From: Alphaproteobacteria bacterium
GTDB taxonomy: Bacteria; Pseudomonadota; Alphaproteobacteria; Micavibrionales; Micavibrionaceae
Direction: 5' to 3'
DNA: 38,139 nucleotides
Assembly: GCA_009929775.1 (NCBI GenBank)
Contig: RZZS01000020.1
Location: 1-38,139 of the forward strand
Positions 4,596 through 7,939 of this stretch are shown here, in pieces; position 1 is the stretch's first letter, and the number at the start of each line of letters is the position of its first letter. Both the position numbers and the translations under genes were made by a program. Under the pieces are notes generated by a model that was given only the letters and a program-made list of their open reading frames with translations, was not told the DNA's origin and did no database searches.

Positions 4596-6203
4596 ATGCT
4601 CAAAACATTAAAATCAACCCTGCTGCTGGGCGCGTCGGTTGCCGCGGTGTCAATGGCTTTGCCGTCGGCGGCTGCGATTGCTGCGGATACGGACGTAGAC
4701 AACGCGTCCGTAACGCGTTCGCTCAATGGTAATTCGGAAGTGACGCGCGATTCCGACAACGACGATGTCGATATCGCCTCGAACAACACCCTCAACGCCA
4801 GCGACGACGACACGACCACGACCAACAACAGCGATGATGACGATGTCGATATCGCGTCCAACAACGACTTCACTGATAACAGCGAAGACAATGACGACGT
4901 CGATGTTGCGTCGAACAACACGCTGAACAACAGCGATGACGACACCACCACGACCAACAACAGTGACGATGACGATGTCGACATTGCGTCCAACAACACG
5001 TTGACGGACAACAGCGAGGACAACGACACGGCAACGTTCAACGCCAGCGACGACGATGTCAATCAGGACAACGACGATGTTGACATTGCGTCCAACAACA
5101 CGACGAACACCACAGCGAATGCCAGTGATGACGATGACGTTGACATTGCGTCGAACAACACGTTGACGGACAACAGCGAGGACAACGACACGGCGACCTT
5201 CAGCGCCAGTGACGACGACGATGTTGATATCGCCTCGAACAACACCGCCAACGCGAGTGACGACGATACGACAACGACGACGACCACCACCACGGCAAAC
5301 GCCAGTGATGACGACGACGTTGATATCGCGTCGAACAACACGTTGACGGACAACAGTCAGGACAACGACACGGCGACCTTCAATGCCAGTGACGACGACG
5401 ACCTCGACATTGCGTCCAACAACACCAACACGGCCACTGACAACAGTCAGGACAATGACGATGTTGATGTTGCCTCGAACAATACGTTGAGCAACAGCGA
5501 CGACGATGATGTCGATATCGCGTCCAACAACACGGCGAACGCCAGCGATGACGACACGACCACTACTACCACTACTACCACTACGACGGCGAATGCCAGT
5601 GACGATGACGATGTCGACATCGCGTCCAACAACACGCTGACGGACAACAGCCAGGACAACGATGTTGCTCAGGACAACGACACGACGACAGCGGCGTCCT
5701 ACAATACCGATAACCGTCAGGACAACGACGTTGCCCAGGACAATGATGACGTTGACATCGCGTCCAACAACACGTTGACGGATAACAGCGAGGACAACGA
5801 CGTGGCGCAAGATAACGACACGACCGGGTCCTACAATACCGACAACAGCGAGGATAACGACGATGTCGATATTGCCTCCAACAACACGACTGATGTCGAC
5901 AACTCCAATCAGGGAAACGACAACCGGAGCTACGAGGTCGAAGTCAATCTTTCTGAGGACGAAAACTTCGCGACTGCGTCGTTCGGCGATAGCGAACTGG
6001 TGACGTCGTCCATCCTTGGCGCTACCGTTGCAAACGCGACCGTCAACTTCGGTGCCGGTCGGAACAACATCGGCGGCAATGTGGTTCAGGACAACGCCTT
6101 CCGCGGAGCCACAGGCATCAATGCTGTAAACCAGAACTCGGGTATCAACTCGAATACCCAGCAGGCGATTACAGTTAACGCCAACATTGGCGATATGCCC
6201 TAA
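4596..6203 (+). CDS. Exported Asp/Asn-rich repeat protein, candidate major subunit of a Fap-like amyloid
   Basis: This is a 535-residue, extremely acidic, low-complexity exported protein. Residues 1 to about 33 form a Sec signal peptide ending in an AAAIAAD-type site. From about residue 55 to 425 there are 14 imperfect copies of a unit centred on D-[VL]-D-[IV]-A-S-N-N, joined by Asn/Ser/Thr/Asp linkers that include threonine runs of 9 and 11. The repeat part has almost no aromatic residues and no Cys. The last 90 residues are different: a mixed-composition segment with AFRGAT (501-506) and a terminal motif Q-N-S-G-x-N-x3-Q (from 513) ending VNANI. That motif recurs in the next small protein and, more loosely, in the 173-residue protein. 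Together with the neighbouring C39 protease and FapF-like porin, this suggests an amyloid subunit exported to the cell surface, though no sequence match to known FapC could be tested. ATG 4596 follows ATAGGAG; the open frame begins 27 bases earlier without such a site. Confidence 0.72.
   Translation: MLKTLKSTLLLGASVAAVSMALPSAAAIAADTDVDNASVTRSLNGNSEVTRDSDNDDVDIASNNTLNASDDDTTTTNNSDDDDVDIASNNDFTDNSEDNDDVDVASNNTLNNSDDDTTTTNNSDDDDVDIASNNTLTDNSEDNDTATFNASDDDVNQDNDDVDIASNNTTNTTANASDDDDVDIASNNTLTDNSEDNDTATFSASDDDDVDIASNNTANASDDDTTTTTTTTTANASDDDDVDIASNNTLTDNSQDNDTATFNASDDDDLDIASNNTNTATDNSQDNDDVDVASNNTLSNSDDDDVDIASNNTANASDDDTTTTTTTTTTTANASDDDDVDIASNNTLTDNSQDNDVAQDNDTTTAASYNTDNRQDNDVAQDNDDVDIASNNTLTDNSEDNDVAQDNDTTGSYNTDNSEDNDDVDIASNNTTDVDNSNQGNDNRSYEVEVNLSEDENFATASFGDSELVTSSILGATVANATVNFGAGRNNIGGNVVQDNAFRGATGINAVNQNSGINSNTQQAITVNANIGDMP
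4755..5895 (+). repeat. Degenerate in-frame coding repeats (14 copies)
   Basis: The DNA encodes the DVDIASNN units at irregular spacing, with synonymous differences between copies such as gatgtcgatatcgc and gatgttgacattgc. Two ACN runs at about 5264-5290 and 5560-5592 encode threonine tracts. The synonymous drift implies selection on the peptide rather than recent duplication alone. The near-identical tracts could still allow copy-number change. Confidence 0.85.
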
Positions 6204-6218
6204 CCGTATGACGCACGT

Positions 6219-6251
6219 GGGAGGAGGATTTTCCGAAAAGGTCCTCCTCCC
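6219..6251 (+). promoter_or_regulatory. Perfect 10-bp intercistronic stem-loop after the major subunit gene
   Basis: GGGAGGAGGA (6219-6228) is the exact reverse complement of TCCTCCTCCC (6242-6251). The loop itself can pair TTTTC with GAAAA. No T-run follows, so it is not a classical terminator. It lies 16 bases after the stop of the repeat-protein gene and 52 bases before the next start. It could protect the 3' end of a processed subunit transcript or lower expression of the downstream genes. Confidence 0.7.
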
Positions 6252-6302
6252 GGTGCGATGCTCACGGATACATGAAAACAGTGCAATTTGACGGGTGCGA
6301 CG

Positions 6303-6659
6303 ATGTTACGGAACATTTTTTTCAGTCTTTCGATTGCGACATTCGCTTTTTCAGTTGCGGTGCTTCCGGTCGAGGCTTTGGCAGAAGAGTCTGATGGCTT
6401 TTCTTTCGACGAGAGACTGGTCGTAGATAGCGAGAGCCTTGGCGAGATGCGCGGCACAGCGCTGAGCCCGGAGGTTCTGGGCATTGTGGTATTCGACGCT
6501 ATCTCGGCGAACAATACCAGCAACGGAACAGTCTCCGGCGGCAATGTTATCGACGCAGGCGCCTTTTCGCATTCGTCCGGTCTGTCGACGATCATCCAGA
6601 ACAGCGGGAACAACGTCCTGATCCAGTCGGCAACGATTGTGAACCTGAATATAGACTAG
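6303..6659 (+). CDS. Small exported Fap-like protein (candidate minor subunit or nucleator)
   Basis: This 118-residue protein has a signal peptide (1 to about 27, ending VEALA). It then carries ESLGEMRG (44-51), which resembles a double-glycine leader motif, and a C-terminal half rich in Asn, Ser, Gly and Ile. Its last 20 residues align without gaps to the end of the large repeat protein: Q-N-S-G-x-N-x3-Q (99-108) ending V-N-L-N-I. By analogy with FapB or CsgB it could nucleate or cap the fibre, which is inference. The ATG at 6303 lacks a strong ribosome binding site, and the frame also has a TTG at 6288. It sits directly after the stem-loop and before the C39 protease, in the same operon. 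Confidence 0.7.
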   Translation: MLRNIFFSLSIATFAFSVAVLPVEALAEESDGFSFDERLVVDSESLGEMRGTALSPEVLGIVVFDAISANNTSNGTVSGGNVIDAGAFSHSSGLSTIIQNSGNNVLIQSATIVNLNID

Positions 6660-6714
6660 GCGGACGTATCCGCCGACGGAAGCTCGTTTATTCTGATTGG
6701 CAAAGGCATTGTTC

Positions 6715-7410
6715 ATGAAGACGTTAATTTGCAGTTTCGTTGTGTTGACCGGCCTGATGCTTTGCGGTCTGGCGCAGGCCAACGATTTTGGGCTCGTGGG
6801 CGGAAACCGTGCCTTCTCGCTGCAGGTCACGAGCTTCAGGGCGCAGCGTTTCGAATCTGTCATACCCCAGCACTACGACTACAGCTGCGGTTCGGCGGCG
6901 CTGGCGACGCTTTTGAAATACCACTACGACATCCCGGTGACCGAGCAGGAAGTTCTCGACGCGATGTATCAGGCCGGCGATCAGGAAAAAATCAGGACGC
7001 AGGGATTTTCCCTTCTGGACATGCGGCGGTATCTCGAAACGATGGAATTGAGGGCGGACGGATTTCAGGTCGACCTCGACAAGGTGAAAGCGGCGGGAAT
7101 TCCCGGAATTGTTCTGATAAACACCAATGGTTACATGCATTTCGTCGTGCTGAAAGGCATCAGCCTGACTCACGTTCTTCTGGGCGATCCGGCGCTCGGC
7201 ACGCGCAAGCTTGCGCACGGGGACTTTCAGAAAATGTGGAACGGAATCTTTTTCGTCATCCGAAACCAGACGGACCTCTCGCGCATGAGCTTCGATTACG
7301 AGGATGGGTGGGACGGGCGGCGCGCCGCCTTGTTCAGGACGGCGTTGACGAGTCAGACGCTGTCTTCGATCGGCCTCCACAGTGCGATGGCTCCGGGCAT
7401 TCATTATTGA
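6715..7410 (+). CDS. Periplasmic C39-family cysteine protease, FapD-like
   Basis: This is a 231-residue exported peptidase. A signal peptide (1 to about 22, ending LAQA) precedes a C39 domain. The expected catalytic set is present: oxyanion Gln-52 and nucleophile Cys-58 within QHYDYSCGSAALATLL, His-142 in GYMHFVVLKG, and Asp-158 in GDPALG. Stand-alone exported C39 proteases of this kind are the FapD component of Fap amyloid operons. The C39 family in general cuts after double-glycine leaders, and both neighbouring small proteins carry such a motif. ATG 6715 is preceded by AAAGG, while an in-frame TTG at 6697 is less likely. The next gene starts 8 bases after its stop, so the two are co-transcribed. 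Confidence 0.85.
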   Translation: MKTLICSFVVLTGLMLCGLAQANDFGLVGGNRAFSLQVTSFRAQRFESVIPQHYDYSCGSAALATLLKYHYDIPVTEQEVLDAMYQAGDQEKIRTQGFSLLDMRRYLETMELRADGFQVDLDKVKAAGIPGIVLINTNGYMHFVVLKGISLTHVLLGDPALGTRKLAHGDFQKMWNGIFFVIRNQTDLSRMSFDYEDGWDGRRAALFRTALTSQTLSSIGLHSAMAPGIHY

Positions 7411-7417
7411 GGGTTTA

Positions 7418-7939
7418 ATGAAGAATCGTCCTCTCAAACCTTTTCTGCTCGGCCTGCTCGCCGTCTTTGTTATGGACGCGCGCACGCAGGCTTGCGCTTT
7501 CCATGAGCCGGTGGCCTTCAAGACGACGAGCGCCGCGTTTCCCGCGAGCGGATTGCCCATCGGGACAGAAGAGCTCGATAGCATGCGCGGAGGGTTCGTC
7601 ACCAGCAACGGCATGGTCATCGACTTCGCCTTCTCGGCCAACACGCTGGTCGACGGCGAACTCATCAATCAAGTCTTTCTCGACAGCGCCGCGCTCGGCG
7701 CGGACGCGGGCGCGCTCCGGAGCATCATCCAGCTCGGCGAGGGAAATGCGGCGTTCCGTGGCGCGACTGACATGAGCATACTTCCGAGCGTTCTCTCGGT
7801 CGTGCAGAACAATCTCAACGACCTGACGATCCAGCAGCTCAACGTTCTGGACCTCTCGGTTCAGAACATGGGCAATTTTACGCGACGTTCGATTGTTCCC
7901 GAAATGGCGTTCCAGAGCACGATGGGACTGGCGCCGTAA
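7418..7939 (+). CDS. Exported Fap-like accessory protein with a double-glycine-type motif
   Basis: This 173-residue exported protein has an N-terminal hydrophobic segment (about 6-19), then EELDSMRGG (51-59). That fits the double-glycine leader pattern E-L-x-x-[IM]-x-G-G. It continues with a Gly/Ala/Asn/Gln-rich region containing AFRGAT (112-117), which is also found at residues 501-506 of the large repeat protein, and a looser copy of the shared motif (Q130 to Q139). These links tie it to the same assembly system. By operon position next to the C39 protease it could correspond to FapE or a second subunit, but no one-to-one match can be claimed. ATG 7418 follows GAGGG. A CAF motif near the predicted cleavage site (residues 26-28) leaves lipoprotein status open. 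Confidence 0.68.
   Translation: MKNRPLKPFLLGLLAVFVMDARTQACAFHEPVAFKTTSAAFPASGLPIGTEELDSMRGGFVTSNGMVIDFAFSANTLVDGELINQVFLDSAALGADAGALRSIIQLGEGNAAFRGATDMSILPSVLSVVQNNLNDLTIQQLNVLDLSVQNMGNFTRRSIVPEMAFQSTMGLAP

Follow-up and report, generated by a model that had tools for sequence, protein, structure and literature searches.

Do the similar C-termini of three exported proteins, encoded next to a C39 protease and a porin, form a shared module, and would such a module serve as an amyloid repeat or as an export signal? The question is raised by five genes in the window, the whole 38,139-nucleotide stretch of DNA from a member of the Micavibrionaceae (Alphaproteobacteria) that was analysed here. The original prediction proposed a common amyloid core or export tag placed on otherwise unrelated proteins.

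Genes of a Fap-related operon

The first gene (4596–6203, plus strand; assigned by translation and inspection) encodes P0001, a large exported protein of 535 amino acids that resembles a major subunit. Inspection indicates a Sec-type signal. The protein has acidic repeats rich in Asp, Asn and Thr and a single C-terminal module; a C39 leader motif is absent. The acidic repeats (DDDDVDIASNNT...) lie at window positions 4755–5803, with DNA periods of 66–180 bp. Three genes follow on the same strand, encoding P0002 (6303–6659), a minor-subunit-like protein of 118 amino acids with a signal, an LxxMRG leader and a C-terminal module; P0003 (6715–7410), a FapD-like periplasmic C39 cysteine peptidase with an intact catalytic C58/H142/D158; and P0004 (7418–7939), a FapE-like protein of 173 amino acids. 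P0005 (8040–9269, minus strand) is a FapF-like outer-membrane porin with an N-terminal coiled-coil-like region (by inspection).

P0003 matches PF03412 (E = 1.6e-22) and the NCBIfam FapD model (E = 6.8e-49), the latter with 166 bits against a curated cut-off of 330, and its catalytic triad is invariant across 15 relatives. As far as its sequence tells, it has the features of FapD (a C39 peptidase, catalytic Cys/His/Asp, an export signal) but is no equivalog. P0005 matches NCBIfam FapF (E = 1.2e-41) and the FapF structure (PDB 5o65, E = 7.8e-29); at 143 bits against a curated cut-off of 700, it is therefore a homologue of FapF and not an equivalog. The P0004 family is homologous to classical FapE in its N-terminal part (hhalign E = 2.1e-8, score 57.6 vs a shuffle maximum of 13.3), which would place it with FapE; the curated FapE model matches 3 of 30 P0004-type proteins, P0004 itself not among them. 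Neither small protein of the window, P0002 or P0004, matches a curated family. The strict published Fap repeat, G-x4-N-x3-G-x6-N, is absent from P0001, P0002 and P0004. Judged by canonical repeats, none of them would be classed as FapB or FapC, and their diverged repeat appears recognisable by profile only. No FapA-like gene was seen within the operon; known Fap systems lack FapA more often than any other component (PMC6173800).

By sequence, the locus is a relative of Fap, that is, a Fap-like amyloid secretion operon and no textbook Fap operon, because its FapD and FapF scores fall below the cut-offs, its P0004 family is FapE-related, the strict repeat is absent and a FapA-like gene was not seen in the operon. 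It shares with Pseudomonas FapA-F the C39 protease (FapD), the porin (FapF), a FapE with an ELxxLRG[RK]Y motif and an Asn/Gln/Gly repeat in the register AF-x-G-x2-GV-x3-NQ-x2-G. It differs in having no FapC with three canonical repeats; it encodes a further small subunit, of P0002 type and with a leader of its own, and its large subunit is made of low-complexity sequence plus one C-terminal repeat. The putative pilus system Fil (NCBIfam) is also similar in its FilB C39 protein (E = 2.2e-32) and FilC outer-membrane partner (E = 2.3e-10), but over these two components the match is weaker than that to Fap.

The C-terminal module and its linkage to the C39 protease

The predicted gapless pattern, identical at 11 of 19 positions between the ends of P0001 (...QNSGINSNTQQAITVNANIGDMP) and the 118-residue protein P0002 (...QNSGNNVLIQSATIVNLNID), proved exact. 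None of 2000 composition-preserving shuffles reached it (maximum 10 identities), and the best ungapped BLOSUM score over the last 45 residues was 85, whereas the highest of the 2000 shuffles scored 55. With the C-terminal 100 residues of P0001 as query, phmmer recovered P0002 from 3,939 ORFs at E = 2.2e-5. The common unit spans about 45 amino acids and so exceeds the 19 residues first noted. As delimited by phmmer, shuffles and profile on the plus strand, this module occupies 6057–6191 in P0001, with the 19-mer QNSGINSNTQQAITVNANI at 6132–6188, and 6519–6656 in P0002, with the 19-mer at 6597–6653; position 6144, where the pattern had been predicted to start, falls within the P0001 19-mer.

A looser pattern had been described in the 173-residue P0004, and it is best regarded as a weaker, family-conserved variant of the module. 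This QN motif (VVQNNLNDLTIQQLNVLDLSV, plus strand, about 7796–7867; shuffles and family alignment) matches P0002 moderately (shuffle p = 0.001) and P0001 weakly (p = 0.017 to 0.12). At the family level, the C-termini of P0004-type and P0002-type proteins align with E = 1.3e-7 (hhalign score 31.1 vs a shuffle maximum of 13.1); the direct alignment of the P0004 C-terminus with the large-subunit module was not significant (score 10.9). The hexapeptide AFRGAT is indeed present in both P0001 and P0004, but its distance to the QN motif differs. We rejected it as a shared motif because the P0004 family does not conserve it, and its sharing is probably a coincidence.

When a collection holding a single genome for each species was searched with a protease profile, at least 591 stretches matched, of which we read the best 80 loci. 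Operons of this type are thus common, yet P0002 and P0004 lie outside curated families. Among these best 80 of at least 591, carriers were Alpha-, Beta- and Gammaproteobacteria as well as Geomesophilobacter/Geotalea, and a P0002-type protein with the C-terminal module adjoins the protease in 69 loci, while the large upstream protein carries the module in 42. The recurring order is a low-complexity major subunit with module, a P0002-type protein with module, the C39 protease, a FapE-type protein and FapF. In the large proteins, the module usually ends 0–12 residues short of the C-terminus and is the constant part; the remainder is of low complexity, either Gly-rich (20–38%) or N/D/S/T-rich, with 0.3–6% Lys+Arg. 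Two loci have variant arrangements. In one (L084:6657-12039), the cassette of large subunit, P0002-type protein, C39 protease and P0004-type protein is tandemly duplicated ahead of one porin gene; in the other (L076:4807-12266), there are two C39 genes, each preceded by FapB/FapC-type repeat proteins of its own, and a single FapF-type porin was detected. Of 57 genomes from the family and order to which the window belongs, none has the protease, which suggests horizontal gain or repeated loss. Viral contigs contained only distant C39 relatives (25–27% identity).

The module is tied to the protease. Using profiles derived from proteins beside C39 genes, we found module matches below 1e-9 in 14 of 398 genomes of the phylum, and all 14 belong to the 39 in which a FapD-like C39 was matched. 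A second set, largely independent of the first, comprised 200 genomes from a single order; 16 of them had such matches, all within 30 C39-positive genomes, only two of these 16 module-positive genomes having contributed to the profiles. The best match lies a few hundred bases from the protease wherever the contig permits. The prediction of a common module linked to the C39/porin pair would have been contradicted by a motif frequent in genomes that lack the pair. At E ≤ 1e-3, matches were found in 0 of 359 phylum genomes and 0 of 170 genomes of the order set that lack a FapD-like C39, with two near E = 0.006 in the former and two near 0.005 in the latter; the module is conserved and, over the 598 genomes together, never occurs at this threshold without a C39 gene. 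The four marginal matches (E about 0.005–0.007; G105:C5:4119-4181, G263:C69:7259-7321, G832:C57:35378-35434 and G876:C4:33005-33067) are either chance or distant relatives. The converse fails: many C39-positive genomes, including classical Fap carriers, have no module match. The module therefore marks one branch of C39/porin systems.

Amyloid repeat or export signal

Between the two functions proposed for the module, amyloid core and export tag, sequence comparison favours the first. The module aligns without gaps and in register with 82 FapB/FapC repeats of classical fap loci (P = 8e-5, score 21.2), and a rebuilt module profile scored 19.3 against these repeats, compared with a column-shuffle maximum of 10.8. 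In two loci, the large subunit carries internal arrays of the module: in L052 there are about 34 copies, recurring roughly every 73 amino acids and nearly all with QQNNG, and in L053 about 10. The L052 protein (L052:9140-16423, minus strand) is at least 2427 amino acids long, almost lysine-free and encoded next to a C39/porin cassette. The modules of P0002-type proteins and large subunits also co-diverge beyond the divergence of the C39 protease (partial r = 0.38, 0 of 2000 permutations). In the FapC fibre core solved by cryo-EM, conserved Asn/Gln residues hold the Greek-key cross-beta layers that the repeats form (PMC12392863). Since the module is in register with FapB/FapC repeats and forms internal arrays in L052, we favour reading it as one Fap-type amyloid repeat through which the subunits would co-assemble. 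AlphaFold2 gave no usable module fold, either for P0002 with 48 relatives (pLDDT 64.5, pTM 0.25) or for three L052 repeats (pLDDT 38.4), and no credible match came up when PDB sequences were searched with this profile of the module (best E = 0.63).

Alternatively, the module could be a C-terminal signal for export or sorting that the FapF-like porin or some periplasmic partner recognises, with the low-complexity part as cargo; it then need not belong to the fibre core. The position of the module at the extreme C-terminus, usually as a single copy, the complete difference between Gly-rich and N/D/S/T-rich passengers and the strict linkage to the C39/porin cassette would all fit a signal. However, the internal copies in L052 and L053 would be superfluous for one, and the repeat that the module matches in register builds the FapC fibre core. 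These points, together with the co-divergence of the modules, led us to prefer co-assembly over a pure export tag, the chief rival reading, which we consider unlikely. Signal-like position and linkage combined with a repeat-like sequence might also mean that the module is recognised for export and later used in assembly, but recognition of the module is putative and this dual role seems improbable. Finally, mere likeness of Asn/Gln-rich tails, conceivable in that the proteins are all rich in N, Q, S and T, is refuted by the shuffles, by conservation of the module profile across dozens of genera and by its lack of matches at E ≤ 1e-3 in C39-negative genomes.

A leader motif and a proposed mechanism

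P0002 and P0004 share a second motif that the original prediction missed, a double-glycine-type leader, VxxxELxxMRGG, behind the Sec signal. The consensus of C39 double-glycine leaders is LSxxELxxIxGG. The candidate site in P0004 (LPIGTEELDSMRGG, with F after the putative cut) covers residues 46–60 (7553–7597, plus strand). Its counterpart in P0002, the DSESLGEMRGT region identified by family alignment (residues 41–52; 6423–6458, plus strand), reads RGT, not RGG, and a helix is predicted at residues 43–49 in a low-confidence model. The leader regions of the two families align with E = 2e-9. Among 75 P0004-type leaders, selected for R at -3, G at -2 and a hydrophobic residue at -7 with no part played by -12, position -12 is hydrophobic in all 75, -7 is L or M in 74 and GG occupies -2/-1 in 73. 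A stringent form of the leader was present in 61 of the 75 proteins and in 11 of 8582 other ORFs; LxxxRG occurred in none of 42 large subunits. With GG at -2/-1 and hydrophobic residues at -12 and -7, P0004 matches the double-glycine consensus, while P0002 has RGT. The idea that the three proteins are otherwise unrelated thus does not hold, because P0002 and P0004 share this motif and their layout, and P0004 is FapE-like. Leaders of C39-ABC bacteriocin exporters are alike in their hydrophobic residues at -12, -7 and -4, their GG at -2/-1 and their C39 peptidase, but here a Sec signal precedes the leader, and the protease is periplasmic, outside any ABC transporter.

The peptidase activity of FapD is essential for FapC secretion, and its target is not known (PMC5557850, PMC6173800). 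In the Pseudomonas system, Rouse et al. recovered by mass spectrometry no FapE peptides from the N-terminal ~70 residues (PMC5557850, PMC6173800) and pointed out GG/GA motifs in this protein (PMC5557850); according to a 2025 review, the FapE N-terminus is thought to be processed by FapD (PMC12822426). The LxxMRG(G) leader is a candidate for the FapD target and would make this idea precise. Pseudomonas FapE has the same site, ending RGR or RGK, and in relatives of P0004 the site is a canonical RGG. With LxxMRG[G/R/K] conserved among FapE-type proteins, a question that has been open since 2017 becomes directly testable.

Taken as a whole, the locus is probably a Fap-like functional-amyloid secretion operon, in which modules would stack, P0003 would trim leaders and P0005 would export the subunits; fibre formation, cleavage and the individual subunit roles are what we infer from sequence. 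P0001, P0002 and P0004 would cross the inner membrane via Sec. In the periplasm, the FapD-like P0003 would remove the N-terminal leader from P0002 and P0004 at LxxMRG(G), licensing export or assembly, and the subunits would leave through the FapF-like porin. The module would act as one Fap-type amyloid repeat, with turn-forming G, N and Q between alternating hydrophobic residues, through which the small subunit and the large one of low complexity may stack on each other. The small subunit probably nucleates or caps the fibre, and P0004, which corresponds to FapE and has a diverged module, is probably its anchor or starting point. Counting against the Fap reading, P0001 has a single module and is for the most part unlike FapC. 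Curli (CsgA/CsgB) works in a similar way, with major and minor subunits that share amyloid repeats and a dedicated outer-membrane pore. Curli is not known to have a C39 protease, and its pore is unrelated. Fap and curli have been described as evolutionarily unrelated (PMC6173800).

We tentatively extend this to a widespread modular fibre system, in which a constant Fap-type C-terminal repeat might dock almost any low-complexity passenger, Gly-rich or Asp/Asn-rich, onto a fibre and C39-cut double-glycine leaders of two Sec-exported minor subunits might switch the system on. If this were true, the cutting target of FapD would be settled, and a docking repeat would offer a natural modular route to chosen polymers on a bacterial fibre.

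Between the P0001 and P0002 genes lies a strong RNA hairpin (6212–6257, plus strand; z = -3.3) with a 15-bp stem core at 6218–6252 and no T-run. In 40 relatives, the 80 nt 3' of the large-subunit gene had z < -2 in 80% of cases, compared with 4% of random stretches, and the T-run is mostly missing there too. In the simplest reading, the hairpin would act through attenuation or mRNA stability, so that the large subunit stays in excess.
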